IMG/VR virus record: IMGVR_UViG_3300040856_002179
Coordinates: 1-43,938 of that record
From: a virus
Length of the DNA: 43,938 bases
Reading direction: 5' to 3' (one strand)
Part shown: positions 1-19,257 of the stretch, one piece after another
Position numbering within the stretch: position 1 is the stretch's first letter
Layout: every line of letters begins with the position of its first letter
Program-made: the position numbers and the translations under genes
The notes under the pieces: model-generated
The model's database searches: none
Told to the model about the DNA's origin: nothing
What the model saw: the letters and a program-made list of their open reading frames with translations, nothing else

Positions 1-1400
1 TGGGTAAGGTGCCGCTTCGCAAACTTACAAGTACTTGTAAGATCCCATATTTGTACGAAGTCTTTGTCCTTTGCCTTTCTTACGCCTCTACCTATACTTT
101 GTATTACCCTAACAAAACTTTTACCAGGCTCAATGAGCACAAGATTAAAGATACGAGGTATATTGATACCAACAGCCGCAACACCATAGGTAGCAATGAC
201 CACCTGATTATCGCCCGTATTAATATCGTCATACGCATCTTTTCTATCCTTTAATTTCACATCGCCTTTAACAAACGTTGATCCTGGTATAAGTTCTTGT
301 AGCATTTCGCCTGCTGAAATTCTGTCTACAAGTATTAGAGTATTGCCTGATTGTTTTACCGTGTTTAATAATTTGCCTATATATTCAATTCTTGCTTTAT
401 TTGTTGTTAAGTATTTTAATTCTTCTTGATAATTGTTGTGTGCTACCGTATCAATAAGTTGTACAATGTTAACATGACACTGCGATAATACACCTTTATC
501 TTGTAATTCTTTTGCTGTGATTTCGCCAATAACTGGACCTAAACTTGCATGTATAGATTCAAACTCAAACTTCTCTTTAGGCACGGTGCCTGTTAGTCCC
601 CAACGTATTGGAGCATTACGTAAGTTGCGTGTAAGAAGATTCTTTAGAACTTCTGCTTTTGCTTGATGTACTTCGTCAACAATTACCGTACTAACACCTT
701 CTAAAAACTCTGCAAGGCTTAATACAGCTTCTCCGTCTTTGTGGCGCTTATCTAATATGTTAAGTGACTGCCATGTGCAGATAGTGTGTGTTTTACCTAG
801 TTGTTTTCTATCTCCAAAATATACACCAACATCTAGTCCGCAGTTGATGTAATCTTCTTCCGTTTGTTCAACTAATGATTTATTAGGTACAATAACTAAA
901 CTGCGCCCATACTTTTCACTCATGTGTGACAATGTAGCAGTTGTAATAGTTTTACCTGCACCTGTTGCAATCTGCTGTAGACTTTGAGGATTGTTTGCAA
1001 AATTGTTGATTGCTTCTACTTGGTAGTCACGTAAAATAATTTCTTCGCCTTCTGCAGGGTGTCCTTTGGGCCAGCATACACCTTGATCAGCCCAATAGCG
1101 TTCTGTAATAGTAGGAAAATTTAAATCAATAGGATGTCTGTTGTCTTCAATGTCTACAATACTTACTTTGTTTTTTTCAAGTACATCCACAATGACGTCA
1201 AGATGATTAACATAGCCTGTACCGCCAATACCAAAAAAAGCAACTTTGCCATCCCAGCGTCCAAGTTTGTACTGCGGCATATATCGTGCATACGGCACAT
1301 CGAACTTGAGAGCATTTGATAACTTTCTCCGTACATCTACATCTAGTCCTTCTAGTTTGATGTTAACTTCATCTTCTATTATAAGTTTACAGCTTGCCAA
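1..1400 (-). CDS. uvsW: UvsW-like superfamily II DNA/RNA helicase, 3' end cut by window edge
   Basis: This is a recombination and replication helicase of the T4 UvsW type, which unwinds branched DNA and R-loops and helps switch the phage to recombination-driven replication. The frame reads open from about 1400 down to base 1. It contains an N-terminal UvsW-like region (IIEDEVNIKLEGLDV), Walker A (ATGAGKT), a DEAH-family box in the form DEVHQA, the SF2 motif WGLTGT, and the C-terminal helicase motifs around VVIATYGVAAVGINIP and QSIGRGVRK. About 466 codons are inside the window; T4 UvsW has about 500, so only the C-terminal tail is missing. There is no in-frame ATG near the N-terminus. A TTG at 1400-1398 is preceded five bases upstream by GGAG, and the next in-frame codon block upstream is closed by a TGA, so TTG is the likely start. 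The start overlaps the end of the upstream gene by 14 bases. Identity is strong; the start is an inference. Confidence 0.93.
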   Translation of the reverse strand, partial: MASCKLIIEDEVNIKLEGLDVDVRRKLSNALKFDVPYARYMPQYKLGRWDGKVAFFGIGGTGYVNHLDVIVDVLEKNKVSIVDIEDNRHPIDLNFPTITERYWADQGVCWPKGHPAEGEEIILRDYQVEAINNFANNPQSLQQIATGAGKTITTATLSHMSEKYGRSLVIVPNKSLVEQTEEDYINCGLDVGVYFGDRKQLGKTHTICTWQSLNILDKRHKDGEAVLSLAEFLEGVSTVIVDEVHQAKAEVLKNLLTRNLRNAPIRWGLTGTVPKEKFEFESIHASLGPVIGEITAKELQDKGVLSQCHVNIVQLIDTVAHNNYQEELKYLTTNKARIEYIGKLLNTVKQSGNTLILVDRISAGEMLQELIPGSTFVKGDVKLKDRKDAYDDINTGDNQVVIATYGVAAVGINIPRIFNLVLIEPGKSFVRVIQSIGRGVRKAKDKDFVQIWDLTSTCKFAKRHLT

Positions 1401-2526
1401 TGTGTCTCCATGACGTTGAATGTGTACGTATCATACCAATGTGTGTATCGTGATATATTTGTAAATCACAATTAAAATTTATAAATGTTTTAACCTGTTG
1501 TGTTGCAGGTAAACTTGTTTTAGAATATACGGTCTTAGGATTAAACCCATTATCTTCTAATAATAGTTTGGGTAACTTATTCTTTTTAATATACACTACT
1601 TTTGTTGTATTGTCTACCCAATTATTTAATTTGTTGTTTTTTATAAATGGGTTTAACATATAATTTTCGTTGTCGCTAGAATCAACTCTAAACAATACAC
1701 TTTGTTCTGCATCGTTTATAACATATTTTACAGCATTATAAAACTCTTTAACTTGTTCATATTCTCTTCCTATGTCTACGCAAACTACAATTCGAAATCT
1801 GTCTAGTTGCATTAGTGCTTCAACAATACTATCTAAAGTTGTAGTAGGCTGAATCAATACTTCAACATCTTTTCTGTTAACAATAGTATCAAGTATTCCT
1901 GTGCAACTATACTTTTTATTAAAAAGTCCAAATTGTTTTTGTCTATCTACAATTTGTAACTCTGACAAATTTGCATCAATATTTGTTTCTAAATTTTTAT
2001 AAACGTTATCTGCATTTGATATAATTTCATTTATTTGTTTGTAATATTCAAGAATAGTGTTTTCAATTTCAAAATTTTGAAACGTGTCAACAATAAGTTT
2101 TATATTTTTTCCACGAGCTTGAAAATAGTGTTCATGCGAGCCTTTACTATGAGAATATTCTTTATGTGTAATAAGTGTTTTTAATTTTTCAATTTTATTA
2201 ATATCTTTTTTACTAAAAGGAAAACGTATTTTAATCCATTGCCAATCTGCTTTATAAGATTCGACAACGATATTTTCAGGATAGTCAACTATCTTAACAT
2301 ACTTACTACGATCTATCTCTCTAATAGGAAGTTGTGTAGGTATAGTGTTGTTAAAACCTTGAATGCTTGCTTCTATCATGAGCTTTGTTACCAATGCATG
2401 TTGCCTATCGGTTAATGCAATGCCTCGTGAGCATTGTTTATGTATACTTTCTAAAATTTGTTTATTCTTGTTTGTAACACCTATATTGTTAACATAATGT
2501 GCTAAAAAATCTTCAACATACTGCAT
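1387..2526 (-). CDS. Conserved phage protein of unknown function, next to UvsW
   Basis: A 379-aa soluble protein directly upstream of uvsW and overlapping it by 14 bases, so the two are probably co-translated. I cannot name it with certainty. The N-terminal region (about residues 20-50, GIALTDRQHALVTKLM) and the segment around 95-165 (WIKIRFPFSKKDI, a short linker, then HYFQARGKNIKLIVDTF) resemble the accessory regions that precede the motor in some SNF2/HARP-type helicases. The C-terminal half has RFRIVVCVDIGREYEQ and VVYIKKNKLPKLLL but no Walker A or DEAD box. It could be a helicase partner or a degenerate helicase. That is an inference from local resemblance and position only. A pair of overlapping sigma70-like promoters lies just upstream of the ATG. 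Confidence 0.75.
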   Translation of the reverse strand: MQYVEDFLAHYVNNIGVTNKNKQILESIHKQCSRGIALTDRQHALVTKLMIEASIQGFNNTIPTQLPIREIDRSKYVKIVDYPENIVVESYKADWQWIKIRFPFSKKDINKIEKLKTLITHKEYSHSKGSHEHYFQARGKNIKLIVDTFQNFEIENTILEYYKQINEIISNADNVYKNLETNIDANLSELQIVDRQKQFGLFNKKYSCTGILDTIVNRKDVEVLIQPTTTLDSIVEALMQLDRFRIVVCVDIGREYEQVKEFYNAVKYVINDAEQSVLFRVDSSDNENYMLNPFIKNNKLNNWVDNTTKVVYIKKNKLPKLLLEDNGFNPKTVYSKTSLPATQQVKTFINFNCDLQIYHDTHIGMIRTHSTSWRHIGKL

Positions 2527-2532
2527 AGTATT

Positions 2533-2570
2533 AATATAGCAAATTATAGCTTAGATGTCAATCTTTTCAA
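2533..2570 (-). promoter_or_regulatory. Two overlapping sigma70-like promoters ahead of the 379-aa gene and uvsW
   Basis: On the minus strand, TTGAAA (2570-2565), a 16-base spacer and a perfect TATAAT (2548-2543) form one candidate. TTGACA (2561-2556), a 17-base spacer and TATATT (2538-2533) form a second. Both overlap the last codons of the upstream gene (stop at 2546-2544) and point at the ATG at 2526. The second would start transcription almost exactly at the ATG. Confidence 0.55.
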
Positions 2571-3389
2571 TGGCATACCTTGAGATATCTCTTCAACGGT
2601 ATATTCAGTCCAGGCATAATCGTTTAGCCATTGTGTTCTATCTGGTGTTTGTGGATACTCTATTAAATTCAAATCATGTCCTGCTACATCATAAGCAAGA
2701 CTACTAGGACCAACAATAGCAGGAACCCCGTTGATGATACTATGTATACCAGGATTACTGCTCCAGCTAATAGTACAAAATACATTATCAAAGCCAATAT
2801 CAAAATCGTCATAACTGCCCTCTATATGTTTTGGTTCTTGTCTTTCTACATAGCGCAACCCACGTTCTATGTGTTCTAATCTACAACGTGGATGTGGTCT
2901 AAATATAATAGTCCTGTCTGTGTGTTTGCGTATTGTATCATATGTTTCTAAAAACCAATTGCTCATGCGAGGCATATCTCGCCATTGTAAACTTTTATCA
3001 TGTTGCCCACATATTAAGATATACTCACCATCTTTGCGCCACGGTTTTACTTCCAGTCCCAAGTCACGACTACGTACACCATCCATACCGCTAGGACCAA
3101 AATAAGCGTCCCTATTAATTCCATTTAATCCTACCTTCCAAGTTGTTCCTCTTTGTATTCCGCCCACTTCTAATACAATAACCTTTTTACCTGTTTTTGT
3201 ATAATAGTCCCAAATAGGTTTATTACCAGTCATGCGTCCGTTGAACAACACGCTCCATATTACAGCAACATCGGCATGCATATCACTATATGTAATAGTA
3301 TGTCCAGCTTCTCTTAAACTATTTTCAAATGCTTCAAAAACAGGCTTGCTGTTTAATGCACCATATTCTTTGAATAAACTAAATCTCAT
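2544..3389 (-). CDS. Kdo-transferase/capsule-synthesis-like glycosyltransferase (paralogue A)
   Basis: A 281-aa protein with the C-terminal half of a GT-B-like transferase of the capsule polysaccharide/Kdo-transferase type. Visible motifs are DTIRKHTDRTIIFRPHPR (about residues 155-172), FCTISWSSNPGIHSIINGVPAIVGPSS (about 208-235) and EYPQTPDRTQWLNDYAWTEY near the C-terminus. The same motif series recurs in the genes at 4844-5779, 5766-7484 (C-terminal part) and 10015-10947, so this is one of four paralogues in the window. The N-terminal half (MRFSLFKEYG, AVIWSVLFNGR) is Rossmann-like and probably forms the other lobe. No signal peptide or membrane segment is seen, so it should act in the cytoplasm. 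The acceptor is unknown. A late-type promoter motif GTTAAATA lies at 3415-3408 on this strand. Confidence 0.72.
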   Translation of the reverse strand: MRFSLFKEYGALNSKPVFEAFENSLREAGHTITYSDMHADVAVIWSVLFNGRMTGNKPIWDYYTKTGKKVIVLEVGGIQRGTTWKVGLNGINRDAYFGPSGMDGVRSRDLGLEVKPWRKDGEYILICGQHDKSLQWRDMPRMSNWFLETYDTIRKHTDRTIIFRPHPRCRLEHIERGLRYVERQEPKHIEGSYDDFDIGFDNVFCTISWSSNPGIHSIINGVPAIVGPSSLAYDVAGHDLNLIEYPQTPDRTQWLNDYAWTEYTVEEISQGMPLKRLTSKL

Positions 3390-3390
3390 G

Positions 3391-3415
3391 TGTAAATACC
3401 TATAACGTATTTAAC
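3391..3415. promoter_or_regulatory. Divergent late-promoter-like inverted pair
   Basis: TGTAAATAC on the plus strand (3391-3399) and GTTAAATAC on the minus strand (3415-3407) form an imperfect inverted repeat between two divergent genes starting at 3389 (-) and 3427 (+). Both resemble the T4 late -10 element TATAAATA. The plus-strand gene also has AAGGA eight bases before its ATG. Confidence 0.45.
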
Positions 3416-3426
3416 AAGGATTAATA

Positions 3427-4248
3427 ATGTCAGACGTAACCGTGGTTTCAACATTTCATAAACCTGTATTAGATTTGTACGGTCAAAGATTTGTAGATAG
3501 TTTTAGTAAAAATGTAGATCCAAAAATTCAATTATTATTATATGCAGAAGATTGTGATCCTAAAACAAATGATAAAAGAATTACAATATTAAATCAAAAA
3601 GCAGAATTACCTAAACTGGTTGCGTTTAAAGAACGTTGGAAAAATGTTCCTAAAGCCAACGGTAAGTGTCCTCCTGAAATAAAAGCAAGGCGTCCAAGAG
3701 ATTGGCACAAAGAGTTTAAATGGGACGCTATAAGATTTGCAAACAAAACATATGCTGTGTTTGATGCAGCAGTGCGTTGTAATACAAAATGGATAGTATG
3801 GTTAGACGCTGACTCTTACATACATAGTGAATTTTCATACAACAATTTTAAAAGATTTTTGCCTGATCGTGCTTGGATGAGTTACTTAGGCAGAGGCAAA
3901 AAATGGCCAGAGTGTGGATTCTATGGTATAAATTTAGAAACAAAAGCAGGTAAAGCATTTCTTAAAAAGTTTGAAAATGTATACGAAGATGCTGAAAATG
4001 GTATTTTTAAAATGGAAGAATGGCACGATAGTTTTGTGTTTGAAGAAGTAAGAATAAAAATACAAGAAAAGTTTTCTGATGTTCCTTATCATAATATCAG
4101 TGGTGACTTGATAAACGGCGAAGGACATCCTATGATTAATAGCGACTTGGGGAAATATTTAGATCATTTAAAGGGCGACAGAAAAAGCGAAGGTAAAAGT
4201 AGGCAAAGAGATTTAATAGTAGAACGCACAGAAAATTATTGGAAATAG
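3427..4248 (+). CDS. GT-A-type glycosyltransferase-like protein
   Basis: A 273-aa protein that begins as a nucleotide-sugar transferase does (DVTVVSTFHKPVLDLYG) and contains a DXD-type metal/nucleotide-sugar site in IVWLDADSYIHSEF at about residues 122-135. It ends with a basic, Lys/Arg-rich tail (KSEGKSRQRD). The fold assignment rests on the N-terminal strand, the hydrophobic strand leading into LDAD, and neighbours that are also sugar enzymes. It is the first of only two plus-strand genes in an otherwise minus-strand island, and its end overlaps the convergent sulfotransferase gene by 13 bases. AAGGA lies at a normal distance from the ATG. Donor and acceptor are unknown. Confidence 0.7.
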   Translation: MSDVTVVSTFHKPVLDLYGQRFVDSFSKNVDPKIQLLLYAEDCDPKTNDKRITILNQKAELPKLVAFKERWKNVPKANGKCPPEIKARRPRDWHKEFKWDAIRFANKTYAVFDAAVRCNTKWIVWLDADSYIHSEFSYNNFKRFLPDRAWMSYLGRGKKWPECGFYGINLETKAGKAFLKKFENVYEDAENGIFKMEEWHDSFVFEEVRIKIQEKFSDVPYHNISGDLINGEGHPMINSDLGKYLDHLKGDRKSEGKSRQRDLIVERTENYWK

Positions 4249-4847
4249 TTTCCGTAATATGTATAATCGTCGCTATAAAAATCTTTTATAAATCTTTTTT
4301 GTTTTTTTGAAATTTTTATTATAGGTAAATTTTTTTTATTACTTGATTTACTTTTTATATCTATAATCTCTGTATCAGTAACATTTTCTATAAATGTTTT
4401 AAATCCTGTGTTTATCTCATTTGTTTTAAAAATATGATCGTAATAAGTTGGATCATTTTTTAAAATTAAAGTTTGCGGAAAAGAATGTCTTTCTAAGTCT
4501 GTATATTTACTTCGTAAATATTCAAAATTGTTTATAAAATCTTGCCAATTAGTAACTTCGTTTTTTATACCGCTTCTGTTTTTTATATGCACTCTGTCTA
4601 AATAACAACTTATAAGTCTTTGAATTGGATTTCTCACTATTGCAACTTTGTAATCTATATTATCAACTAATGCTTTTGAATGATTTTTCCACCACTTATT
4701 ATTTTTAATTAATTCATGTTTTGCTTTATATGTTAAATGTTTATTAAAATAAGTATATCCAATAATACTTACTGCACTAGTAGTGCCGCATTTTCTACTT
4801 ACTGCTAAATGTAAAACCTTATCATTTGGCAATACAATTAATGTCAT
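4236..4847 (-). CDS. Sulfotransferase family protein (Sulfotransfer_2-like)
   Basis: A 203-aa protein with the two PAPS-binding signatures of sulfotransferases: a 5'-phosphosulfate loop VSRKCGTTSAVSII (residues about 16-29) and the 3'-phosphate motif YKVAIVRNPIQRLISCYLDRV (about 78-98). It would transfer sulfate from PAPS to a sugar or other hydroxyl or amine group. The start at 4847 is chosen because its ATG overlaps the stop of the upstream gene (ATGA at 4847-4844), a typical translational coupling; a start 30 bases further upstream is possible but would lie inside that gene. It follows a Kdo-transferase-like paralogue, which suggests that the sugar handled by the island may be sulfated. 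The reaction is family knowledge and the substrate is not known. Confidence 0.78.
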   Translation of the reverse strand: MTLIVLPNDKVLHLAVSRKCGTTSAVSIIGYTYFNKHLTYKAKHELIKNNKWWKNHSKALVDNIDYKVAIVRNPIQRLISCYLDRVHIKNRSGIKNEVTNWQDFINNFEYLRSKYTDLERHSFPQTLILKNDPTYYDHIFKTNEINTGFKTFIENVTDTEIIDIKSKSSNKKNLPIIKISKKQKRFIKDFYSDDYTYYGNYFQ

Positions 4848-5779
4848 TTGCAGTAATCTCTCATATGAGCCCAACACGATCCGTTTTGCAGTTCAACAAA
4901 ATTCCAATGGAACATACTAATTCTTTCTAACCACTGCTCTCTATTAAATTCATTTGGTGTTTCTATATTTTTAAAATGATCGTTTGATACTTCTGCACAT
5001 TGACTTTTGTTTGGATCTGTAATAAATGCATGATACCCTTGTATAATAGGTCCTACTATGCTACTGCTATTGTGATTTACTACTGCCCATGCTTTGTGTA
5101 AATCTGCTTCTAAAGGTCGACCAAAGTCACTTAATTTAACATTTGGTAAGTTTTTAATTCTATTGTATCTATGAGATAGATAACGTACAGCCTTTTTATC
5201 CCCAGGGTGCGGTCTTACAATAATAGGTCTATCGCTGTACTTTCTAATTTTCCTAACGGTATCTATTACCCAATCTTGAATATCGTATGTACCCATACTC
5301 CAGCCGCCGTTGCGTTGTAAACATAAAACTATGTTTCTACCCTTTTTTTGATAGTCTTGTAACTTAATTCCTGTATGGGCACTAATTTGTTTCCATCTTT
5401 TTGGATCTGGTTTGTCATCACAATAATTTCCTACATTAGGAAAAACTCCATTAATACTATACCTTAAATAATGATATGGAGTATTTGCTCTGTTAGCATA
5501 TAAAAATAAATTACTATCAGCTGTAATTACAAAACGATTTTTAGCAATTTGTGTATCTATTACTTTTTGCCTTAATTGTAAATGAGCACCTCCCTTGCCT
5601 CGTTGATGCTGCCATCCTTGTATAATTGCTACATCGCAATCCTGTAAATCGTATCCGTTGTATGCTACTCCGTTGTCTCCTTGTTTTTGAACACCTTGTA
5701 CAAAATTTGTTAGTATAGCATTTTTTTCATAACTGCTATTTTGTTCAGGAACAACTCTTTGATAACTAACTACCTTCAT
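4844..5779 (-). CDS. Kdo-transferase/capsule-synthesis-like glycosyltransferase (paralogue B)
   Basis: A 311-aa paralogue of the gene at 2544-3389. The shared series is seen as VIDTVRKIRKYSDRPIIVRPHPGDKK, then AWAVVNHNSSSIVGPIIQGYHAFI and finally NIETPNEFNREQWLERISMFHW. The Asn-Ser-Ser loop followed by a glycine-containing helix is typical of the nucleotide-sugar lobe of Kdo/capsule transferases. The N-terminal lobe (VVSYQRVVPEQNSSY, DLQDCDVAIIQGWQHQRGK) differs from the other copies, as expected if acceptors differ. The start overlaps the end of the upstream two-domain gene by 14 bases, and the stop is shared with the downstream sulfotransferase start. No membrane segments are seen. Confidence 0.72.
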   Translation of the reverse strand: MKVVSYQRVVPEQNSSYEKNAILTNFVQGVQKQGDNGVAYNGYDLQDCDVAIIQGWQHQRGKGGAHLQLRQKVIDTQIAKNRFVITADSNLFLYANRANTPYHYLRYSINGVFPNVGNYCDDKPDPKRWKQISAHTGIKLQDYQKKGRNIVLCLQRNGGWSMGTYDIQDWVIDTVRKIRKYSDRPIIVRPHPGDKKAVRYLSHRYNRIKNLPNVKLSDFGRPLEADLHKAWAVVNHNSSSIVGPIIQGYHAFITDPNKSQCAEVSNDHFKNIETPNEFNREQWLERISMFHWNFVELQNGSCWAHMRDYCK

Positions 5780-7484
5780 TCAATATACCAAACGCAGTAC
5801 CGTCCATCATTTCTTTTTTTGTAAATTGGCAATAAGAAAGATGTCGCATAAATGCATCCATTTCGTCTTTTGTAGGAATATTTAAGTTTTCTACTTCAGA
5901 TAATTTATCATTACACAAAACACTTGCAGCATTCGGTCCTAATGCTATAGCAGGTTTTCCTAGCATTAGTGCTTCAGTTGCTGCTATACTATTGTAAGTT
6001 ATCATGCAATGCACATCGTCTGCTAATGCTTGTGCCATAGTTTGGTCTGTGACTCTGTTTATACGCTTTGGTTTCATCCGTATTTCAATAGGCCTATCTG
6101 TGTATTTTTTCAATTCTTTGGTAACCATACGTACCCATTCTTCTGGAGTAGGTTGATCCCATAAGAACATTACTTTTTCACTAGGAGGACAAATTAAAAT
6201 TTTTCTACCTTCTGTAAACTTTCTAAATTTATAACCTATACGTCTAAGTCTGTCACCAGGACGATTAATAATAGGTCCTAAATTTTGTAAGTTATTTTTT
6301 GTTATTCTATGCCAACCTTTAGATTTACTTTTGTCATTACCCCAATAACCTGTATCAATACAATAGTATGTTCTGCCTGTATCCCAGCAATGTTGAAATG
6401 CTAATCTTGCTTTTTTACCTACACCTCTAATTACCAACGGCATATCGGAATTTTGCTCACTTTCCCAATCACTAAGTTTACCATCTGATCCAATTGCAAA
6501 TGCTTCTAAGTATTCATCGTATACATAATCACGTGTTTCGTAATTTAAGTCGTCGTTAAAAATTGCAGCAACTCTATGTGTTTTAGTATCTTGGAACTTG
6601 TTCATCATAACCATATCTGCTATCTCCGTTTTGTAATATTTTTGATGTGGGTCTATATTAATTTTTATCAAGTCATCAATTAATTTTTTTTTTGAATCCG
6701 AAACAGATAACTGACTAGTTGTTACAGGACGTATTTCTCTTTCTATATTATCTTTCTCGTTTTTTTGAATCTTATCTTGTAATATTTTTCTTTCGATATC
6801 CAACCATTCTTTATTGTACTCGCAATTATAGTGTTCTGGAAACCAAGGACCACCTTCTGTATAATGTAAGGCACTAGGCACGCCGTCTTTGGGTTCTTCA
6901 TACCAACCTACAAGCCAATTCCATTCATGACTGAGTTTACCAATTTCATGATCTTGTAGCCAACTAAATCTATGAAAGTATGCACCAGTTTTGTATTCAT
7001 CATTAACAAGTTCTGGGGTTAATTTTAGATTACTAGGATGTCCACAATTAATTAACATCATGCTTGACCAGTTTTTTCTAGGATAGTTAAGTTGTTGTTT
7101 ACCATCCATTTTTATACCTTCTTTAGGAGTGTAGTCGTGTTGAGCACACATTAAAGCATACTTGTCATTTCTTTGATCAAACAGGTTTTTAACATCGTCT
7201 AAAAATACAAAGTCGCAATCTATAAACAATGCCCATCCTTTATAACCCATCATACGAGGAACTAAGAATCTTGTAAATGTAAATTCTGTACTAGCCAGTG
7301 CATCAATAGGTCTATTGTACAACCCGGCAGTGCGTAATGCTTTTTGCTTTAATGGAACTACGTTTACAGGTACGGTGGCAGTTTCTCTTATACTCTTTTT
7401 ACAAACTTGATATGCAATGTCTTCTCTGCTATCCCAACCTACATAAATTTTTAGTTCTTCTTCAATCTCGTCGCTCAATGTCAT
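5766..7484 (-). CDS. Two-domain glycosyltransferase: GT-A domain fused to Kdo-transferase-like domain (paralogue C)
   Basis: A 572-aa fusion. The N-terminal part (about residues 8-240) is a GT-A glycosyltransferase: it opens with LKIYVGWDSREDIAYQVC, carries a DXD site in ALFIDCDFVFLDDV at about 106-119, and has a conserved-looking HYTEGGPWF near 208-216. A charged linker (about 240-275) follows. The C-terminal part (about 275-572) is the Kdo-transferase-like unit also seen in three neighbouring genes (KKYTDRPIEIRMKPKR, MITYNSIAATEALMLGKPAIALGP, LSYCQFTKKEM). In this copy the usual RPHP motif reads RMKP, so the His is lost, which may affect catalysis. Such two-headed enzymes usually add two sugars in succession; that role is inferred. 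It overlaps the upstream cytidylyltransferase gene by 23 bases. Confidence 0.75.
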   Translation of the reverse strand: MTLSDEIEEELKIYVGWDSREDIAYQVCKKSIRETATVPVNVVPLKQKALRTAGLYNRPIDALASTEFTFTRFLVPRMMGYKGWALFIDCDFVFLDDVKNLFDQRNDKYALMCAQHDYTPKEGIKMDGKQQLNYPRKNWSSMMLINCGHPSNLKLTPELVNDEYKTGAYFHRFSWLQDHEIGKLSHEWNWLVGWYEEPKDGVPSALHYTEGGPWFPEHYNCEYNKEWLDIERKILQDKIQKNEKDNIEREIRPVTTSQLSVSDSKKKLIDDLIKINIDPHQKYYKTEIADMVMMNKFQDTKTHRVAAIFNDDLNYETRDYVYDEYLEAFAIGSDGKLSDWESEQNSDMPLVIRGVGKKARLAFQHCWDTGRTYYCIDTGYWGNDKSKSKGWHRITKNNLQNLGPIINRPGDRLRRIGYKFRKFTEGRKILICPPSEKVMFLWDQPTPEEWVRMVTKELKKYTDRPIEIRMKPKRINRVTDQTMAQALADDVHCMITYNSIAATEALMLGKPAIALGPNAASVLCNDKLSEVENLNIPTKDEMDAFMRHLSYCQFTKKEMMDGTAFGILNEGS

Positions 7485-8217
7485 TCTCCGTTAATTCTTT
7501 ACCCATCCAAACTTCTATTACTTTGGCATCTTTGTTATCTAGATTGACTGCTTTATGCCACCAGCCGGTTGGTATATCTATGCTATCGCCAGGCACCAAT
7601 AATGTACTGGTTTTTCTACCTTGCTTATCTTCAAGGAACATATTTATAACACCATCAACTACATGCCAGTGTTCACTGCGTTTAAAATGTCTTTGATCAC
7701 TCAATGCTTTACCTTGATAAAATGTAAGTTCTTTTACTTGCCATTCTCCGTTACGATCAAGTACTTTATATTCACCCCATTCACGCTGTGTCACAGGCTT
7801 ATCCCAATTTTTTAATATCCAACTGCTTGAATTTTTCTTATCTTCGCCTCCAACTCCAAACACAAACTCAACATCATTGTATATCATTTCTGGAATGTTG
7901 TCTTTGGTTCTATCACCACCGTTGGCAAAAATAACTTTTGTTTGACTGCCTACCGTAGACAGCACTTGAAATATTGCTCCGCAGGCTGTGTTGTCGTTGT
8001 CGTTAAATCCTATAACTTCATCAACACAATCTAATTCTTTTATTATTGCACAACGTTCTGCAAATGGCATAAATGGCCTACCTTTTTTACGTGTAAGCCA
8101 ATCATCACTATTAACACCTACTACAAGGTGATCACCTAATTCTTTTGCTGCTTTGAAATATGCGATATGACCGCTGTGTAATGGGTCAAATCCACCTGTA
8201 ACTATTACAACTTTCAT
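7462..8217 (-). CDS. Cytidylyltransferase-like domain fused to a mannose-isomerase-type cupin
   Basis: A 251-aa fusion. Residues 1 to about 130 are a nucleotidyltransferase of the glycerol-3-phosphate/ADP-heptose cytidylyltransferase type: TGGFDPLHSGHIAYF contains the HxGH signature, and GVNSDDWLTRKKGRPFMPFAER contains the typical substrate segment. Residues about 143-245 form a cupin of the phosphomannose isomerase type II kind (EYKVLDRNGEWQVKELTF, HFKRSEHWHVVDG, LVPGDSIDIPTGWWHKAVN), with His residues that could bind metal. The protein would activate a small phosphorylated sugar or polyol as a CDP/NDP derivative; the cupin may isomerise or epimerise it. The gene sits directly upstream of the two-domain glycosyltransferase, which suggests that it supplies the donor. 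A late-promoter motif CATAAATA lies only four bases before the ATG. Confidence 0.85.
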   Translation of the reverse strand: MKVVIVTGGFDPLHSGHIAYFKAAKELGDHLVVGVNSDDWLTRKKGRPFMPFAERCAIIKELDCVDEVIGFNDNDNTACGAIFQVLSTVGSQTKVIFANGGDRTKDNIPEMIYNDVEFVFGVGGEDKKNSSSWILKNWDKPVTQREWGEYKVLDRNGEWQVKELTFYQGKALSDQRHFKRSEHWHVVDGVINMFLEDKQGRKTSTLLVPGDSIDIPTGWWHKAVNLDNKDAKVIEVWMGKELTENDIERRD

Positions 8218-8221
8218 ATGG

Positions 8222-8229
8222 TATTTATG
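8222..8229 (-). promoter_or_regulatory. Late-promoter motif CATAAATA four bases from the start codon
   Basis: On the minus strand CATAAATACCAT leads straight into the ATG at 8217. No ribosome binding site is visible between motif and start. In T4-type late promoters the transcript begins about six bases past this element, so the mRNA would be leaderless or nearly so. Confidence 0.5.
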
Positions 8230-8240
8230 TACGCATATAA

Positions 8241-8792
8241 CTACACAAACTCAATTTCGGCTTTAATATGTTTATTGTATTTTTCGATTATGTTTATAAT
8301 TTTTACATTCTCGTGTGTCGTTTTTTTACGCAAATCAAAAATAATTTTTGTATTTTTGTTTGAATGTTTTAAGATTAAATCTTTGTATGTATTGGCAGGA
8401 TAATGAAAGCCGCAACTTAAACCACTATAGATTAAATCAAATTTAATTTTTTTAGGAATTTGTATATTGTTTGCATCAACAAACGTATAAGACATTTTTC
8501 GCTCATTGTAAGATTCAATAAGTGTATCTACTTTATTATAAAATTTAAATGATTCTGCAGGACCAAAGTTTATTTCTCTTTTCCTATCTTGTGTGTGAGA
8601 AAAATCACCGTCTAATAACCAAAGCTCAGTTCCAAATTCTTTTTGAAAATATTCACTTTCTCTTGCGTATCCGCAACCTATATCTAAAATTCTGTTGGGA
8701 GGATTATCTAAATAATTTTTTGTAGTTTCAAAAATAGTACGCTTGCTTTCTATGTGTACATTACTATCCCATTTTTCTAACCATTTATTCAT
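8241..8792 (-). CDS. Class I SAM-dependent methyltransferase
   Basis: A 183-aa protein with SAM-binding motif I in NRILDIGCGYARESEYF (about residues 32-48), the acidic end of strand 2 in LWLLDGD, and a post-I region FDLIYSGLSCGFHYP that marks the active-site side. The downstream FDLRKK strand completes the Rossmann fold. The start at 8792 is preferred because it gives the ATGA overlap with the upstream methyltransferase gene. Substrate is unknown; in this setting a sugar or lipid-linked sugar is the simplest guess. It is shorter than most full-length methyltransferases but the core is intact. Confidence 0.75.
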   Translation of the reverse strand: MNKWLEKWDSNVHIESKRTIFETTKNYLDNPPNRILDIGCGYARESEYFQKEFGTELWLLDGDFSHTQDRKREINFGPAESFKFYNKVDTLIESYNERKMSYTFVDANNIQIPKKIKFDLIYSGLSCGFHYPANTYKDLILKHSNKNTKIIFDLRKKTTHENVKIINIIEKYNKHIKAEIEFV

Positions 8793-9436
8793 TGTACAAC
8801 CTTTATTGCGCATTGTTGATGATTGTTATGAGATAAAACAATAAATTTACGATTATAAATTTCTATCCATTCTTTTAATGCTTTGTATTCACCTTCTTGC
8901 CAGTTATCATATTCTACTATGCCCCAAGGATAAAAATCATCAAAAACAATCACGGTACCTTCTTTTATATACGTATTTAATTCTTTTAACACATATATCG
9001 AACTACTATACAAATCGCAATCAACATGTAATAATTTTATATTCTTTATATTTTGTTGTTTAATAAAAATAGGTAATGTTTGGTCAAACCATCCTTTATG
9101 TAATCTAACATTTTCTTTTACGTTTGGTAAAGTACCATTGCGATCAAACGCTTCGCCTTTGATAACTTTATTTCCTAAATCCCAATCTTCTGGTAATCCT
9201 TTAAAACTATCAAAGCCATGCACTATATCTTTATTAAAATGTTTTGCAATTACATTTATTGTATTTCCTTGGAACACGCCAAACTCTAATATATGTCCGT
9301 TATTATTTGCATACTTAAAAGTATGTTCTAAATGATGTAAACGATTTTTTAATCTTTTACCTGCCTTAAATTTTTCTAAATAAATACTTTCATGAAAACA
9401 AGAAATATTATAGTTGTGTTTTCCAATTACTTTCAT
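8789..9436 (-). CDS. TylF/macrocin O-methyltransferase-like protein
   Basis: A 215-aa methyltransferase of the TylF or Methyltransf_24 type. Motif I is ILEFGVFQGNTINVIA, followed by HGFDSFKGLPEDW, and the metal-binding part is LLHVDCDLYSSSIYVL with VIVFDDFYPWG. Members of this family methylate hydroxyls on sugars or similar groups and use a divalent metal bound by the Asp residues. The true start is taken at 9436 (MKVIGKHNYN), because a divergent gene begins at 9453 and a perfect late-promoter octamer TATAAATA (9448-9441) lies four bases upstream; the longer reading frame would run through the neighbour. It ends in an ATGA overlap with the next methyltransferase. Confidence 0.8.
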   Translation of the reverse strand: MKVIGKHNYNISCFHESIYLEKFKAGKRLKNRLHHLEHTFKYANNNGHILEFGVFQGNTINVIAKHFNKDIVHGFDSFKGLPEDWDLGNKVIKGEAFDRNGTLPNVKENVRLHKGWFDQTLPIFIKQQNIKNIKLLHVDCDLYSSSIYVLKELNTYIKEGTVIVFDDFYPWGIVEYDNWQEGEYKALKEWIEIYNRKFIVLSHNNHQQCAIKVVQ

Positions 9437-9440
9437 ACGG

Positions 9441-9452
9441 TATTTATAAATT
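9441..9452. promoter_or_regulatory. Bidirectional late-promoter palindrome
   Basis: Minus strand reads TATAAATA (9448-9441), the exact T4 late consensus, four bases before the ATG at 9436. Plus strand reads TATAAATT (9445-9452) directly abutting the ATG at 9453. The core ATTTATAAAT is a perfect palindrome serving two divergent genes only 16 bases apart. Confidence 0.6.
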
Positions 9453-10043
9453 ATGATAATCTCACACAAGCATAAATTTATTTTTTTAAAAACAAGGAAA
9501 ACAGCAGGTTCTAGTTTTGAAAATTTTATGTATCCTAAATTAGGTTTAGATGACATATGCACAGGATCACCTAGAGATGGCACTCCTCGTATAAATCATC
9601 CTACAGAAGATGGTCATGTTAGTTGGAAATATTTTCATATAAATTACAATGAAGAATTTAACAACTATTTTACATTTTGCGTAGAAAGAAATCCTTGGGA
9701 TAAAGTAGTTAGTTATTATTACTGGTACAAAAAAATTAAACCACACAAAGTTAGACACGGGTTTGAGGAATTTGTTTTAAACGAAAAGTTCTCTCAACAA
9801 AATGATTGGAAAAAATACGCAGACTCTACAGGTATAAAAGTTGATAAAGTTTTACGTTATGAATCTTTACACAAAGAGTTGCAAACTATTCCTATTCCAT
9901 ACGCAAGTGAAATGCTAACAACTCATGTAAAAAGTGATACTAGGAAGAACAGAAGTTACCGTCCTTTATACAATACCGAAACAAAAAATACCGTTGCAAG
10001 AGTATTTAAAGATGTTATAAACCAGTTCGGCTATGAATTTTAG
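9453..10043 (+). CDS. Sulfotransferase family protein, second copy
   Basis: A 196-aa protein with a 5'-PAPS loop FIFLKTRKTAGSSFENF (residues about 8-24) and a 3'-phosphate motif YFTFCVERNPWDKVVSYYYWY (about 71-91). The KTAGSS form is typical of the Sulfotransfer_2 group that includes carbohydrate sulfotransferases. It differs clearly in sequence from the copy at 4236-4847, so it is not a recent duplication. It is on the plus strand, divergent from the TylF-like methyltransferase, and its 3' end overlaps the convergent Kdo-transferase-like gene by 29 bases. No ribosome binding site is visible before the ATG. Confidence 0.78.
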   Translation: MIISHKHKFIFLKTRKTAGSSFENFMYPKLGLDDICTGSPRDGTPRINHPTEDGHVSWKYFHINYNEEFNNYFTFCVERNPWDKVVSYYYWYKKIKPHKVRHGFEEFVLNEKFSQQNDWKKYADSTGIKVDKVLRYESLHKELQTIPIPYASEMLTTHVKSDTRKNRSYRPLYNTETKNTVARVFKDVINQFGYEF

Positions 10044-10947
10044 CTTTGTTATACAGAGGCAGTAAATGTTTTATAGGTAAGCCTCTAGCAATTTCATCTT
10101 CTCTCCATTGACAATATGCAAGATTATATAGCCACTGGTCTCTATCAAACGTATTTGGTGTATCTATATTTTTTAAATCTTTATTACTACATTCCCAAGC
10201 CATACTGCTTGGACATAAACTAAATGTAGGAATACCTTCGCATACACTTTCTGTAAGTGCATTGCTATTAAAGCCTACAACAGCAAATGCATCATCAAAG
10301 TCTCTTTGTAACCCATTACCGCCTTCGAGCAGTTTACTATCTTTATTATTTTCGCTTATTGTAACACCGTCTAAATTTACTTTGTTTAATATGTCAAGTT
10401 GAACATCTTGACGCAATGGGTGTAATCTAATTTTAATAGGCTTGCTAGTGTATTTGCGAATGTCTCTTAAAACACTTTGTAAAAATATTTCATAAGTACC
10501 ATACTTTTTTAATAAATTTTTTAAACTACTATCGCCAGGTCTTTGTAATATTAATAATACATATTTTCCAGTTTTACGCCATGGCTTAATTTCTATGCTT
10601 TGCATAGCTTTTACTTCATTCCATCGATCCGGCGGACATTTATGATTATTATACCAGCCTTCATCTCTAAAGTAACTAAACCAACTAAATCTATGATATG
10701 CATTTTTGCTAGGCGGTTGATGCATATTTTTCCTAAAAACAGCAGACTCAACAACTATATAAGGTTTTTTACTATCTAATATAAATTGGTAATGAGGTTT
10801 AAACTTTTTTCTTTTTTGTTCAATAATATTGTTTTGAAAAAATATATCAGCTTTGTATAGTCTACGTTTATCTGCAAATGAAACTAATTCTACTTGTGGA
10901 GGTAAAGGATGGTTTCTATACGCTTCTGCTATTGCTACTATGTCCAT
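10015..10947 (-). CDS. Kdo-transferase/capsule-synthesis-like glycosyltransferase (paralogue D)
   Basis: A 310-aa paralogue of the genes at 2544 and 4844. Visible parts are QSIEIKPWRKTGKYVLLILQR, DIRKYTSKPIKIRLHPLR, AFAVVGFNSNALTESVCEGIPTF and NIDTPNTFDRDQWLYNLAYCQW, ending in GLPIKHLL, which matches GMPLKRL in copy A. It shares the K/R-x-G-x-Y entry strand with copy A and the NIxTPNxF segment with copy B, so it links the set. It overlaps the upstream glycosyltransferase by 32 bases, suggesting coupled translation. Confidence 0.72.
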   Translation of the reverse strand: MDIVAIAEAYRNHPLPPQVELVSFADKRRLYKADIFFQNNIIEQKRKKFKPHYQFILDSKKPYIVVESAVFRKNMHQPPSKNAYHRFSWFSYFRDEGWYNNHKCPPDRWNEVKAMQSIEIKPWRKTGKYVLLILQRPGDSSLKNLLKKYGTYEIFLQSVLRDIRKYTSKPIKIRLHPLRQDVQLDILNKVNLDGVTISENNKDSKLLEGGNGLQRDFDDAFAVVGFNSNALTESVCEGIPTFSLCPSSMAWECSNKDLKNIDTPNTFDRDQWLYNLAYCQWREDEIARGLPIKHLLPLYNKAKIHSRTGL

Positions 10948-11578
10948 CTACATATCCTAAAAACTTACTTAAATATTTTTCAGTTTCTTTTTGCTCGCCT
11001 TTTAGTGTTAAAAAGATACTATCTGTTTTGTTTTTTCCAATAGCCATCCAGCTTCGTGGTAAAGGCTTAAACAAATGTTTTTCGCCTAATTTTGCCAATA
11101 CTTTTTGATCTCTGCCAAACTTCCAATTATCAATTTTTTCTTCTAACAATCCGTCGGCAAAATCGATATGTAAGTTGTTTTTTGGAAATGTAACAAAACC
11201 TGCTAACCATCTTGGCTCTTTATGATGTTGTAATACATGATTATTTCTAAATAAACTTTTACATGTATACATATCAATTTCTCTTGTGCATATAGTATCG
11301 GCATCAAGGGTAAAAACTAAATCTTCTTTTTTGAATTTATTTGCAACCGCGAGGAATCTTACTGCTTGTAAATATCCAATTTTACTATCGTCATTTGCAA
11401 AGTCTCTTTCTTCTTGAGTATAGTCTACAAATCGTAACGGTGTGTATTTTTCAGGATTTACTATATGACAATGAAGTTTAGCCCAGGGATTTTTTAAGTA
11501 TATACTTGTTAATAGGCGTTCACCCCAATCAACATAATACTTGTGATCAACGCCTATTAATATATTATAATGTTGCAT
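10916..11578 (-). CDS. GT-A-type glycosyltransferase-like protein
   Basis: A 220-aa protein that starts MQHYNILIGVDHKYY and carries a DXD motif in DLVFTLDADTICTREID at about residues 90-106. The later RWLAGFVTFP and GRDQKVLAKL segments suit a nucleotide-diphospho-sugar transferase. The start at 11578 is favoured over a further upstream ATG because it overlaps the uvsY stop by only 14 bases. It joins the sugar island directly to the recombination operon, so it is probably transcribed together with uvsX-uvsY. Donor and acceptor are unknown. Confidence 0.68.
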   Translation of the reverse strand: MQHYNILIGVDHKYYVDWGERLLTSIYLKNPWAKLHCHIVNPEKYTPLRFVDYTQEERDFANDDSKIGYLQAVRFLAVANKFKKEDLVFTLDADTICTREIDMYTCKSLFRNNHVLQHHKEPRWLAGFVTFPKNNLHIDFADGLLEEKIDNWKFGRDQKVLAKLGEKHLFKPLPRSWMAIGKNKTDSIFLTLKGEQKETEKYLSKFLGYVDGHSSNSRSV

Positions 11579-12020
11579 CTTCCATTCCTGCAACACGTAA
11601 TTTAACAATATTTGTAATTTGCCATTGTTTCTGATCAAGTGCTTTTAACACGCCTAACCATTTGTTTCTTATTAATGCAAATTCGTTTATAATTTTTTCG
11701 TAATCAACAACATCTTGTTCACCGTCGACATATTTTTCTACATCACGACTACTCAATGCACGTTGATAATTTTCTAAATATTTTTTAAAAAACGAGCTAC
11801 GCAGTCTACGTAGCTCTATATTTAAATATTCGAGTATTGCTTCAATTTCTTGAAGCTGATTGAAACGATGTTCAACAATGCCTGGCATTTGCGCAGATTG
11901 CTTTTCTACATTACCATGTAACTTACACTCTTGTTTTGCTTCTAAAAGTTCAGTTTCAAAGTATTGTATTGCCGCAGGTATTTCGTTAATGTTACGGCTA
12001 ACTCTGCTATACCAACCCAT
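11565..12020 (-). CDS. uvsY: UvsY recombination mediator
   Basis: A 151-aa protein with the features of UvsY, which loads UvsX onto gp32-coated single-stranded DNA. It is mostly helical and charged (YFETELLEAKQECKL, LNIELRRLRSSFFKKYLENYQRAL) and is close to the T4 length of 137 aa. The end segment (LRVAGMEDATL) matches the conserved tail of marine T4-like UvsY as I know it. The start at 12020 makes a TAATG overlap with the small gene upstream; an in-frame ATG 12 bases earlier is an alternative. The order uvsX, small gene, uvsY supports the call. Confidence 0.82.
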   Translation of the reverse strand: MGWYSRVSRNINEIPAAIQYFETELLEAKQECKLHGNVEKQSAQMPGIVEHRFNQLQEIEAILEYLNIELRRLRSSFFKKYLENYQRALSSRDVEKYVDGEQDVVDYEKIINEFALIRNKWLGVLKALDQKQWQITNIVKLRVAGMEDATL

Positions 12021-12253
12021 TAATCGTCCCAATCCTCCTCGTCTTCATAGAATACTTCGCTTTCATCTTCAAGATAATATTGAATTGCTGTGTCTAAGTC
12101 TTTGTCAGTGCCTAATGATTCCTTAAATGTAATATCATCAACACCGTAATCTGCTAACATATCAACAAACCTTTCGGCTGCTGTTTCAACGTGTTTTTTA
12201 TCTAAATAGTTTTTAAAAGTATTCCACACGTCGGCAATGACTTCTTCATTCAT
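12020..12253 (-). CDS. Small acidic protein between uvsX and uvsY, conserved hypothetical
   Basis: A 77-aa protein starting MNEEVIADVWNTFKNYLDKK and ending in a strongly acidic tail (EDEEDWDD). It is helical by appearance and has the segment YGVDDITFKESLGTDKDLD. Proteins of this type occur beside uvsX in other marine T4-like phages, but no function is known to me. The ATG at 12253 overlaps the uvsX stop, and its stop overlaps the uvsY start, so the three genes form a tightly coupled operon. The acidic tail recalls proteins that compete for ssDNA-binding partners; that is only a guess. Confidence 0.78.
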   Translation of the reverse strand: MNEEVIADVWNTFKNYLDKKHVETAAERFVDMLADYGVDDITFKESLGTDKDLDTAIQYYLEDESEVFYEDEEDWDD

Positions 12254-14921: not shown

Positions 14922-17033
14922 TTACATTCCTGCTAAATTTTTAATACGGTCTAAGTCTTCTGTTGATTCGCCCATTCTTCTTGCATTGTATGCTAAATCG
15001 TCAATTTGTAACATAACACCGTATAATGGATCAATTGCTTGGGAAGAATATGCTTTTTCACCGCCTGTTTCAGCTCTTTTGTACATACCCCTAACTTGGA
15101 ACATATCATCTAGTGCTGTTTTCAATCCTGGAGGAGTAGCAGCGTGAGTAAAGTTATTTGTAATGTTTCTCAAATACTCGCCTACATTATAAGTTAGATT
15201 AATGTAATCATTTTGGAAACGTGCATCTTTACCCATTTGCGCACCGCCGCCTGTAGTACCATCTATTTTTGCTCTTTTTCTTAAATGACCTAATACTGCT
15301 TCTGCATCGTCTAAGTCATAGATGTAACTAAAATATCCAGCTTTAGCACCCTTTTCTGTACCAGTTTTTCTAATGTCGCCAAACTTTCTAATAGCAGAAC
15401 CTATTCTACCTTCTTCTACATCTGCCTCTCTGTATCCCATTACTTCTGCGACCTTTGCGTCGATACGTTCTATGAACTCTTGTGCGGGCCTTACATATTG
15501 TTCTCCGTATTCTTTTTCTACCCTAGTAAGCACGGCTGTTGGGCCTTTTGGAAATTGACCATTTTCTCTGTCAAAATAACTTAGGATAAATTCGCCTAAT
15601 GGAATTTTTTTATCTTTTTCTAGTGTAATTTTGTCGCCATCTGGTCCGTCAATTTCATCGCCTTTTTCCTTGCCGTTCATCTTTGCCATGCGTACTGCTT
15701 TTGCGTATGCATTGCCTTCGTCAGTTTCTTCATCTTCATTAATTTGAGCTGCAAACTGACCTAGTAATTTATCTATAACACTTTCCATTGCTGCTGGCTC
15801 TATCATGTATTTGAATCTCAACATTCTTAATGTAGATGTATCATTGCCATCTATGTAAGCGCCTAGATTATCTAAATGTCGCTGTGCTTCTTTATCGCCG
15901 CCTTCGGCTGCCTTTTGTAATGCTTTACCTAATGGAGTATTTTTTGCTCCAAGAGTTTTATATGCAGCATAACCGCCTGCTGCTGCTAAACCTACTAGTG
16001 CTAAAACTAGAGGAAGTGCTTCGTCTAATTTTTGTGTTTCACCTAATAAATCATCTGCTGTAAGTTCTGTTGCTTTTGTATTTTCGCCTATTAACTTATA
16101 GATGTAAGGAAATACATCTTGTAATTCTTCATTGAATTGTTTTACGGTTAATTGATCGATCCAATTTTCTGCAATATCATCTGGAACATCAACTTTATCT
16201 TCTGCTACAAAGTTTTCAAATGTGTCTTTGTAAAATGATTCTTTTTGTAAATTTAAAATACGTTTTTTAATTTCAGTTACACGTTCGTTTACAATATCCA
16301 TATGACCTGCTAAACTTTCTGCCATAACACTGCTACGATTCATATAAGTTTTGAACTTGCGGAGACTTGAAAGTTCTTCACTTAAACCTGTAATGTGTTT
16401 ACCAAAGTCGTCGTAAGGATTTCCACCTTCACTTACGTGTATTGCCATTGCTCTAGCACCACCTAAATGTTTGTAAGGATATTTAAATTTTTCGCCTTCA
16501 GAATTTTCAATGTAAATAGCACCAATTTTTTTAGTTCTGTTTTCATCTTCGTCTAAAGTACCTGTATGTTTAATTGAAAGTTTTGCATTTCCAATTTTTT
16601 GGAAACTAGTTTTATTAGTTCCGTACATTTTTGATTCTGCCATTGTTTTTTCTCCGCTACGATTTTTGGCAAGATATTCATAATCTCTACGTTGTAAATT
16701 GTTTTTATTAATATCTCTTACTTCAAAATTTAAAAGCCTTTTCTTAGAAAATTGTCTAATATCACGTAAAAAATTATACCAATTATCTTTTATAGATTCT
16801 TCAGCACCTTCTGCGAAGCCTTTGCTGTACATTACAACAATTCCATCTTCTTCATCAAGGCTAACACTTACTTTGCCAACGTTTTCGTCGTTTTCGCTAT
16901 ATGTAAAATCAAAATAACGAGCCTGCTTAGGTTCATTGATTACTTCGCCGTTTTCGTCACCGATAGTTATCTCGGTGAAACGACTTCTAAGTTGATTAAA
17001 TAAATCAGATGCTATAATTTCTAAATTCTTCAT
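14922..17033 (-). CDS. Large putative virion protein of unknown function
   Basis: A 703-aa protein between gp17 and the small hydrophobic gene. The N-terminal third is rich in charged residues. There is one hydrophobic, glycine-rich stretch near residues 345-368 (ALPLVLALVGLAAAGGYAAYKTLG), then a helical, charged C-terminal half. No enzyme motif is seen. Size, position and the membrane-like segment suggest an internal or ejected virion protein, but this is inference. The start is put at 17033 (MKNLEIIASDLF), because a GATAAATA late motif lies at 17049-17042 and overlaps the gp17 stop; an ATG 18 bases further upstream would fall at the motif. Confidence 0.7.
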   Translation of the reverse strand: MKNLEIIASDLFNQLRSRFTEITIGDENGEVINEPKQARYFDFTYSENDENVGKVSVSLDEEDGIVVMYSKGFAEGAEESIKDNWYNFLRDIRQFSKKRLLNFEVRDINKNNLQRRDYEYLAKNRSGEKTMAESKMYGTNKTSFQKIGNAKLSIKHTGTLDEDENRTKKIGAIYIENSEGEKFKYPYKHLGGARAMAIHVSEGGNPYDDFGKHITGLSEELSSLRKFKTYMNRSSVMAESLAGHMDIVNERVTEIKKRILNLQKESFYKDTFENFVAEDKVDVPDDIAENWIDQLTVKQFNEELQDVFPYIYKLIGENTKATELTADDLLGETQKLDEALPLVLALVGLAAAGGYAAYKTLGAKNTPLGKALQKAAEGGDKEAQRHLDNLGAYIDGNDTSTLRMLRFKYMIEPAAMESVIDKLLGQFAAQINEDEETDEGNAYAKAVRMAKMNGKEKGDEIDGPDGDKITLEKDKKIPLGEFILSYFDRENGQFPKGPTAVLTRVEKEYGEQYVRPAQEFIERIDAKVAEVMGYREADVEEGRIGSAIRKFGDIRKTGTEKGAKAGYFSYIYDLDDAEAVLGHLRKRAKIDGTTGGGAQMGKDARFQNDYINLTYNVGEYLRNITNNFTHAATPPGLKTALDDMFQVRGMYKRAETGGEKAYSSQAIDPLYGVMLQIDDLAYNARRMGESTEDLDRIKNLAGM

Positions 17034-17047
17034 ATTAATATTATTTA

Positions 17048-19217: not shown

Positions 19218-19230
19218 AACGTACTTAGTC

Positions 19231-19257
19231 AAAAAAATAGCGTCCTAAGACGCTATT
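19231..19257 (-). terminator. Intrinsic terminator
   Basis: Minus-strand hairpin with a 9-bp stem AATAGCGTC/GACGCTATT (19257-19236), a four-base loop, and a run of seven T immediately after (19237-19231). It ends the transcript of the gene at 19276-20139 just before the sulfotransferase-like gene. Confidence 0.85.

Follow-up and report, generated by a model that had tools for sequence, protein, structure and literature searches.

An island of 11 genes for making and modifying a glycan lies at positions 2544–11578 of a 43.9 kb IMG/VR virus record (IMGVR_UViG_3300040856_002179; "the window" below means this whole stretch, 43,938 nucleotides), and we give about even credence to the reading that it is an exchangeable, late-expressed "glycotype" locus that decorates a virion protein. 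The window was recognized as that of a T4-like myophage by its uvsX, uvsY, gp32, terminase, and tail sheath stabilizer genes, and among cultured phages its UvsX is closest to those of jumbo phages, Atu_ph07, Phosso, CBB, and GAP32 among them (61–65% identity). We named the island genes K1 to K4 (3-deoxy-D-manno-oct-2-ulosonic acid [Kdo] transferase–like), GA1 to GA3 (GT-A–type glycosyltransferases), ST1 and ST2 (sulfotransferases), MT1 and MT2 (methyltransferases), and CTcup (nucleotidyltransferase–cupin). A virion protein is favored as the acceptor because the core of the island appears to be transcribed with virion genes and because the locus contains no function for flipping, polymerizing, or exporting a glycan.

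The relatives were collected with three proteins, and contigs retrieved by uvsX alone, with at least 4 kb of downstream sequence, served as an unbiased test of recurrence; these were drawn from the 80 closest uvsX relatives and include some near-duplicates. All 44 such contigs carried uvsY, 41 carried at least one island transferase family, and 34 carried CTcup. The transferases of the 41 contigs sat downstream of uvsY, separated from it by a variable stretch, and the usual order, within the reach of each contig, was CTcup, GA3, K3, K2, GA1, K1, the gene for a 379-residue protein, and uvsW. Complete islands (n = 39) comprised 7 to 15 genes over 7.0 to 12.6 kb. Their variable part, located between uvsY and CTcup and at times also between K2 and GA1, encoded methyltransferases (FkbM and others), sugar epimerases/dehydratases, and sulfotransferases, as well as 2-oxoglutarate (2OG) oxygenases, radical S-adenosylmethionine (SAM) proteins, aminotransferases, and pyruvyl and GT25/GT2 transferases. 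GA3 and K3 were fused in some phages and encoded by separate genes in many relatives, which supports their joint action. In the large phage contigs searched, all K-profile matches fell within a single locus, and the K1, K2, and GA1 queries found no match in cultured Rak2-like phages. A preliminary description of this DNA had proposed that the genes form one pathway, and this proposal gained support from the recurrence of the ordered block at one position in dozens of relatives; the pattern named there as a refutation, single genes scattered over unrelated places, did not hold within the clade. A complete island between uvsY and uvsW was also present in two contigs filed under a Candidatus Neomarinimicrobiota metagenome-assembled genome (PBPT01000082.1, 153 kb; PBPT01000016.1, 335 kb); these are misbinned jumbo phage sequences and hint at the genome size of the clade.

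The island genes diverged far faster than the genes that flank them. Among 31 contigs with a uvsX at least 90% identical to that of the window, the median identities of the flanking genes were 95% (uvsX), 88% (uvsY), 83% (gp32), and 94% (uvsW), and those of the island genes were 78% for CTcup, 73% for both GA1 and K1, 60% for K2, 58% for GA3+K3, 47–55% for the methyltransferases, 31–42% for the sulfotransferases, and 28% for K4; GA2 was not found in these contigs at the threshold used. This pattern resembles that of serotype loci, in which glycan genes are swapped within a conserved frame.

The sequence ATAAATA has been described as the probable late promoter in CBB and GAP32, where it precedes structural genes (PMC5259590), and, in the form NATAAATA, in cyanophages (PMC2984593). 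We counted its occurrences within 40 nucleotides upstream of deduplicated start sites across the relatives. ATAAATA preceded the virion-type genes for a gp13-like protein (43/43) and a 709-residue protein (32/35) and those designated 24436 (31/32), 20136 (31/31), and 23086 (26/28). Conversely, it preceded none of 289 recombination and replication neighbors (uvsX, 0/93; uvsY, 0/96; gp32, 0/70; uvsW, 0/30). CTcup, the first core gene, had the motif in 33 of 66 distinct relatives, against an expectation of 2.8; a Fisher test on such counts takes no account of kinship among the phages. In the window, the motif stands directly before CTcup (ATAAATA, 8222–8228, minus strand) and MT2 (TATAAATA, 9441–9448, minus strand) and not before the other island genes. 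TATAAATA occurs twice in the window, where 8.4 occurrences are expected, and is thus rarer than chance; this count tells nothing on its own, and the evidence comes from comparing relatives. The rarity looks as if the motif were avoided outside promoters.

GA3+K3 and K2 probably share the CTcup transcript because they follow CTcup with overlaps. The divergent spacer between GA1 and K1 (3390–3426) contains TAAATAC in both directions, forming a TAAATAC...GTATTTA palindrome that is repeated in relatives and is possibly a two-way late promoter. At CTcup (8218–8228), and at the corresponding site in relatives, the motif ends about 4–5 bases before the start codon, as it does at some virion genes; if T4 spacing holds, the late messages of CTcup and of these virion genes would be leaderless or nearly so.

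No flippase, polymerase, or exporter was visible in 140 islands, where none of the 1,091 genes had more than one predicted membrane helix (1,085 had none and six had one). The predictor was a simple hydropathy method, which in a control found five helices in the K-12 O-antigen polymerase and seven in the flippase. Homologs of GA3, the K proteins, and GA1 were also located beside virion genes in three unrelated phage groups, namely by tail fibers, between the capsid and stabilization protein genes, and before the terminase and portal genes. The cultured Caulobacter phages CcrSC and CcrColossus likewise encode GA3 and K homologs. In the window, the 709-residue virion-type protein encoded near the island (phrog_13484; 14922–17051, minus strand) is fast-changing, with a median identity of 52% among close relatives, and is a candidate glycan acceptor.

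We next turn to the four Kdo-transferase–like domains, which our own profiles placed in one superfamily. The Pfam, NCBIfam, and PDB profiles returned nothing for K1, K2, K4, and GA1, and neither the four Kdo-like proteins nor GA1 and GA2 had a significant Pfam or NCBIfam match; the fold was assigned from the model of K2 (4844–5779, minus strand; pLDDT [predicted local distance difference test] 94.9, pTM [predicted template modeling score] 0.90) and extended to K1, K3, and K4 by their profile similarity to K2. A Foldseek search with this model gave an E value of 1e-7 for KpsC, and 24 of the top 25 matches belonged to the KpsC/WbbB/KrkA group of retaining β-Kdo transferases, which have a modified GT-B fold in common. 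In a VIA comparison, this group supplied the first 15 of 50 entries with Z scores of 12 to 14 (up to 14.1 over 242 residues), the next entry scoring 10.5. Sequence identity between K2 and this group is only about 10–13%. Fold relatives of K2 were also found in Tetraselmis virus 1.

In KpsC/WbbB/KrkA-type enzymes, the Asp residue of a QxxxD motif forms a covalent Kdo adduct and a (K/R)xHP motif binds cytidine monophosphate (CMP) (PMC12887879, PMC9587256). Among the four Kdo-like domains, the full QxxxD motif was kept only in K4 (10015–10947, minus strand; QRPGD and RLHP in the window), where QxxxD was present in nine of nine sequences and RxHP in eight of nine. K2 had QxxxG and RxHP in 45/45 sequences, with Gly at the nucleophile position, and K1 (2544–3389, minus strand; RPHP in the window) had QxxxS and RxHP in 35/35. 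K3, part of the 572-residue GA3+K3 fusion (5766–7484, minus strand), had PxxxK in 20/20 and RxK and P in 18/20 sequences and lacked the Gln, the Asp, and the His of HP. This comparison takes the nucleophile column of the alignment to be equivalent in structure, an assumption grounded in the Gln that is invariant in K1, K2, and K4. The lack of variation in the replacements within each clade makes decay of K1, K2, and K3 unlikely; these proteins are likely to use a different mechanism or donor. By motif, K4 is the only one of the four for which activity would be expected, and it may be a member of GT99/GT107/GT140, in which K1, K2, and K3 were not filed because they lack QxxxD. We tentatively propose, while thinking it somewhat more apt to be wrong than right, that K1 to K3 represent unassigned glycosyltransferase families with the KpsC/WbbB fold and another mechanism or donor, which together with K4 coat the virions of a large, uncultured clade of marine T4-like phages with a sulfated acidic glycan specific to the phage.

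One K3-type and one K4-type relative were found in two of 299 Pseudomonadota genomes. These bacterial relatives adjoin glycosyltransferase genes, the K4-type one also adjoins a sulfotransferase gene, and QxxxD is present in one bacterial relative as well. GA1 had no match in the same 299 genomes, a search that had no positive control and hence carries little weight. The window island contains no CMP-Kdo synthetase. In Synechococcus phage S-SCSM2R (positions 8007–11532 of the contig examined), a GA3 homolog lies near annotated KdsB and KdsA genes, which is possibly a phage-borne CMP-Kdo supply. We dropped KdsA/KdsB neighbors as a sign of Kdo use because the two other neighbors of the GA3 homolog in S-SCSM2R were unmatched by the K profiles and the window island lacks a CMP-Kdo synthetase.

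CTcup (7462–8217, minus strand) combines a HIGH-type nucleotidyltransferase (Pfam CTP_transf_like, E = 1.8e-16) with a type II phosphomannose-isomerase–like cupin (MannoseP_isomer, E = 1.4e-19). The cupin signature QxHxxRxEHW was present in 29 of 43 sequences and reads QRHFKRSEHW in the window, and we read the cupin as phosphomannose-isomerase–like, in agreement with the Pfam match. The best NCBI family of CTcup was heptose-1-phosphate adenylyltransferase, below its cut-off (TIGR02199, 72.8 against 181.5 bits); the cut-off of the glycerol-3-phosphate cytidylyltransferase family was not reached either (TIGR01518, 45.3 against 165.4 bits), and PDB profiles pointed to ethanolamine-phosphate and glycerol-3-phosphate cytidylyltransferases. 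The HIGH-type superfamily is clear, and sugar activation is a fair prediction in general terms.

SAR11 and SAR86 bacteria commonly carry relatives of CTcup (about 43–54% identity), which in the contigs examined are mostly single genes in stable places adjoining polA, gyrA, or metK/ahcY. We therefore rejected CTcup as a marker of a bacterial glycan locus. In the CTcup tree, phage and bacterial clades were interleaved, which suggests exchange of the gene between phages and SAR11/SAR86 bacteria. Four contigs filed under Rhodobacteraceae or Bacteroidetes (L176, L177, L178, and L183) carried CTcup upstream of a distant terL homolog, and in three of them CTcup was preceded by a pair of genes for proteins of about 345 and 412 residues (the L177 pair had no NCBIfam match); this is another, different phage group using CTcup.

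The remaining island genes and the borders are as follows. From the uvsY side to the uvsW side, nine of the 11 genes are on the minus strand and two, ST2 and GA1, on the plus strand. The left border is uvsY (11565–12032, minus strand; phrog_231, E = 4.5e-18), followed in the variable part by GA2 (10916–11578, minus strand; a TTG start at 11638 is possible), a putative GT-A–type glycosyltransferase with a DxD motif in an LDADT context, whose homologs lie directly after uvsY in five relatives. K4, assigned by its profile kinship to K1–K3, comes next. ST2 (9453–10043, plus strand) matched Sulfotransfer_2 (E = 2.5e-6) and phrog_3347 (E = 2.7e-10), and ST1 (4236–4847, minus strand; a GTG start at 4877 is possible) matched Sulfotransfer_2 (E = 1.7e-12). 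Both carry the 3′-phosphate motif RNPxxxxxSxY (RNPWDKVVSYY in ST2 and RNPIQRLISCY in ST1) of 3′-phosphoadenosine 5′-phosphosulfate (PAPS)–type sulfotransferases, and ST2 also has the 5′ PAPS motif KTAGSS, where ST1 reads RKCGTTS. A 198-residue protein encoded at 18636–19232 (minus strand) gave a weak Stf0 sulfotransferase match (E = 0.054); it is present in hardly any relative and is possibly a third sulfotransferase. MT2 (8789–9436, minus strand) is a TylF-like O-methyltransferase (TylF, E = 2.7e-14; phrog_6608, E = 3e-36), for which a GTG start at 9583 is possible; the reading frame 8789–9583 also matched Methyltransf_24 in Pfam. MT1 (8241–8813, minus strand), a SAM-dependent methyltransferase, had only weak Methyltransf_25/23 matches below the cut-off (E of about 0.002). 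The GA3 part of the fusion matched phrog_28018 (E = 6e-51), and GA1 (3427–4248, plus strand), a GT-A–like core transferase often found on the opposite strand, keeps its DADS/DADT motif in a 35-sequence family.

On the right, uvsW (3–1400, minus strand), identified from its helicase sequence, is truncated by the end of the window. The 379-residue protein (1387–2526, minus strand) is encoded between K1 and uvsW, an order that is kept among relatives, and may or may not belong to the island. It evolves fast (median identity of 41% where uvsW is 94%) and matched nothing in Pfam, NCBIfam, or PDB sequence profiles, and its model gave no confident fold match (best Foldseek E value, 2e-3; best VIA Z score, 9.8 over 143 residues). 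Its C-terminal lobe bears a weak resemblance to a superfamily 1/2 helicase domain; the protein may be a UvsW relative that has degenerated, or its fold may be unrelated.

The preliminary description had listed ten adjacent genes between uvsY and uvsW. All of its reading frames are present and of the kinds named, and uvsY and uvsW do flank them; the genes number 11, one of them a GT-A and Kdo-like fusion, and the extra gene at 1387–2526 separates the island from uvsW. The mostly co-directional arrangement with overlaps of 4 to 32 bases was reproduced when ATG starts were assumed, and both PAPS-type sulfotransferases scored above the Pfam cut-off. Of the two methyltransferases, the TylF match upholds MT2, MT1 having the weak matches given above. 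The naming of four Kdo-transferase–like proteins held for the fold, through the K2 model and the shared superfamily, and for the catalytic motif only in K4. The term cytidylyltransferase–cupin was right about the fusion and the HIGH-type superfamily and too specific about the substrate, the best family being an adenylyltransferase.

If the favored reading is correct, a conserved core and an exchangeable block, consisting of soluble enzymes throughout and headed by a late-type motif, would act as follows. The cupin half of CTcup would isomerize a sugar phosphate and the HIGH half would activate the sugar with a nucleotide, after which the GT-A enzymes and K1–K4 would assemble, in the cytosol, a short acidic glycan; K4, K2, and K1 would probably use CMP-linked acids, such as host CMP-Kdo. 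The sulfotransferases, drawing on host PAPS, and the methyltransferases would decorate this glycan, the acceptor being most likely a phage structural protein. Exchange of variable genes between close relatives would then alter the glycan and thereby the face that the particle presents to hosts, antagonists, and adsorbing surfaces.

Several observations weigh against this reading. The motif from which late transcription is deduced is missing at half of the CTcup genes, and none lies directly upstream of K2, GA3+K3, or GA1. The cultured Pelagibacter phage Mosig EXVC030M (MT647606, 125.7–130.7 kb) carries GA1, GA3, two K-type proteins, a sulfotransferase, and two methyltransferases in a row, and this cassette, unlike the island, has RuvC and ribonucleotide reductase as neighbors elsewhere in the genome and lacks the late motif; no nucleotidyltransferase–cupin was found there. 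In addition, soluble enzymes can reach the lipid A–core from the cytosol too, and several families resemble surface-polysaccharide enzymes, with bacterial K relatives placed beside glycosyltransferase genes and, in one case, a sulfotransferase gene. These last points bear on the main alternative, to which we assign a substantial minority chance: that the island remodels the host surface (lipid A–core or capsule) and so blocks rival phages or, if late, keeps progeny from sticking to debris. Published work on the glycosyltransferase clusters of pelagimyophages and cyanophages interprets them as modifying the host surface, and the fold relatives KpsC, WbbB, and KrkA make capsule or O-antigen. Classical exclusion should, however, be early, whereas the core has a late-type motif that the surrounding early/middle genes lack, and none of the 140 loci encodes a polytopic membrane protein such as a flippase, polymerase, or exporter.

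Two further products are improbable. T4 glycosylates its DNA with its own transferases, as other phages do, so that hypermodification of DNA bases with sugars might be considered here; but the thymidylate synthase/dCMP hydroxymethylase profile was absent from seven large clade contigs (several of them fragments) and the misbinned 335 kb contig, no Pfam match to known DNA glucosyltransferase families was obtained, and the core carries a late motif, unlike the base-modification genes of T4, which are early. We know of no precedent for a sulfated base glycan, and we regard this reading as very improbable indeed. Slightly less remote, and still quite unlikely, is a secreted or intracellular small molecule, such as a secondary metabolite or a signaling nucleotide-sugar, in place of a macromolecular glycan. 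Iyer et al. proposed such a product for a second cyanophage cluster (PMC7824862), and the radical SAM, aminotransferase, and 2OG-oxygenase genes of the variable blocks would fit it; the core, however, consists of several glycosyltransferases with polysaccharide-building folds in a fixed order. Among the targets offered in the preliminary description, the late motif and the homologs beside virion genes thus favor the virion, the host envelope comes after it, and DNA is disfavored.

The island shares features with several known systems. K2 has the whole-chain fold of KpsC (GT107), WbbB (GT99), and KrkA (GT140), and K1, K2, and K4 have their RxHP CMP-binding motif; unlike in these enzymes, the nucleophile Asp is Gly in K2 and Ser in K1 and is altered in K3, and the island K proteins occur singly or as GT-A fusions, not within capsule operons. 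The lipopolysaccharide (LPS) clusters that cyanophages (P-SSM2) and other jumbo phages carry (PMC7824862) likewise combine variable phage glycosyltransferases with a HIGH nucleotidyltransferase and a cupin, but the island has another place, a fixed core order, sulfotransferases, and a late-type motif; the functions of both are read from their genes. The host recognition cluster of pelagimyophages also comprises hypervariable glycosyltransferases and an rfaE-like gene in marine T4-like phages and lies in the structural region between VrlC and gp14 (PMC7029224), whereas uvsY and uvsW enclose the island. Mycobacteriophages and giant algal viruses also encode soluble transferases that glycosylate virions, as in the mycobacteriophage work cited in PMC12619734 and in the case of chlorovirus A075L, which acts on the capsid-protein glycan (PMC11571054); their enzymes belong to other families, and their glycans have been seen on virion proteins, whereas the island is known here from genes alone. 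No description of a uvsY–uvsW glycan locus was found in the open-access literature. Phage surface-sugar clusters are already known; this one adds a new place with a fixed core, promoter evidence of the late type, genes for sulfation, and replacements of the nucleophile.

The conserved replacement of the nucleophile in three sister clades provides a natural series for studying the transferase mechanism. Phage "LPS clusters" have long been read as host-surface tools, and we found no direct tests of this in marine phages; the promoter pattern helps to separate the hypotheses, since the motif at the start of the core is shared with the particle genes and absent from the early neighbors. If the island does make a variable sulfated virion glycan, it would constitute a serotype-like system in marine phages that bears on adsorption, host range, and grazing.

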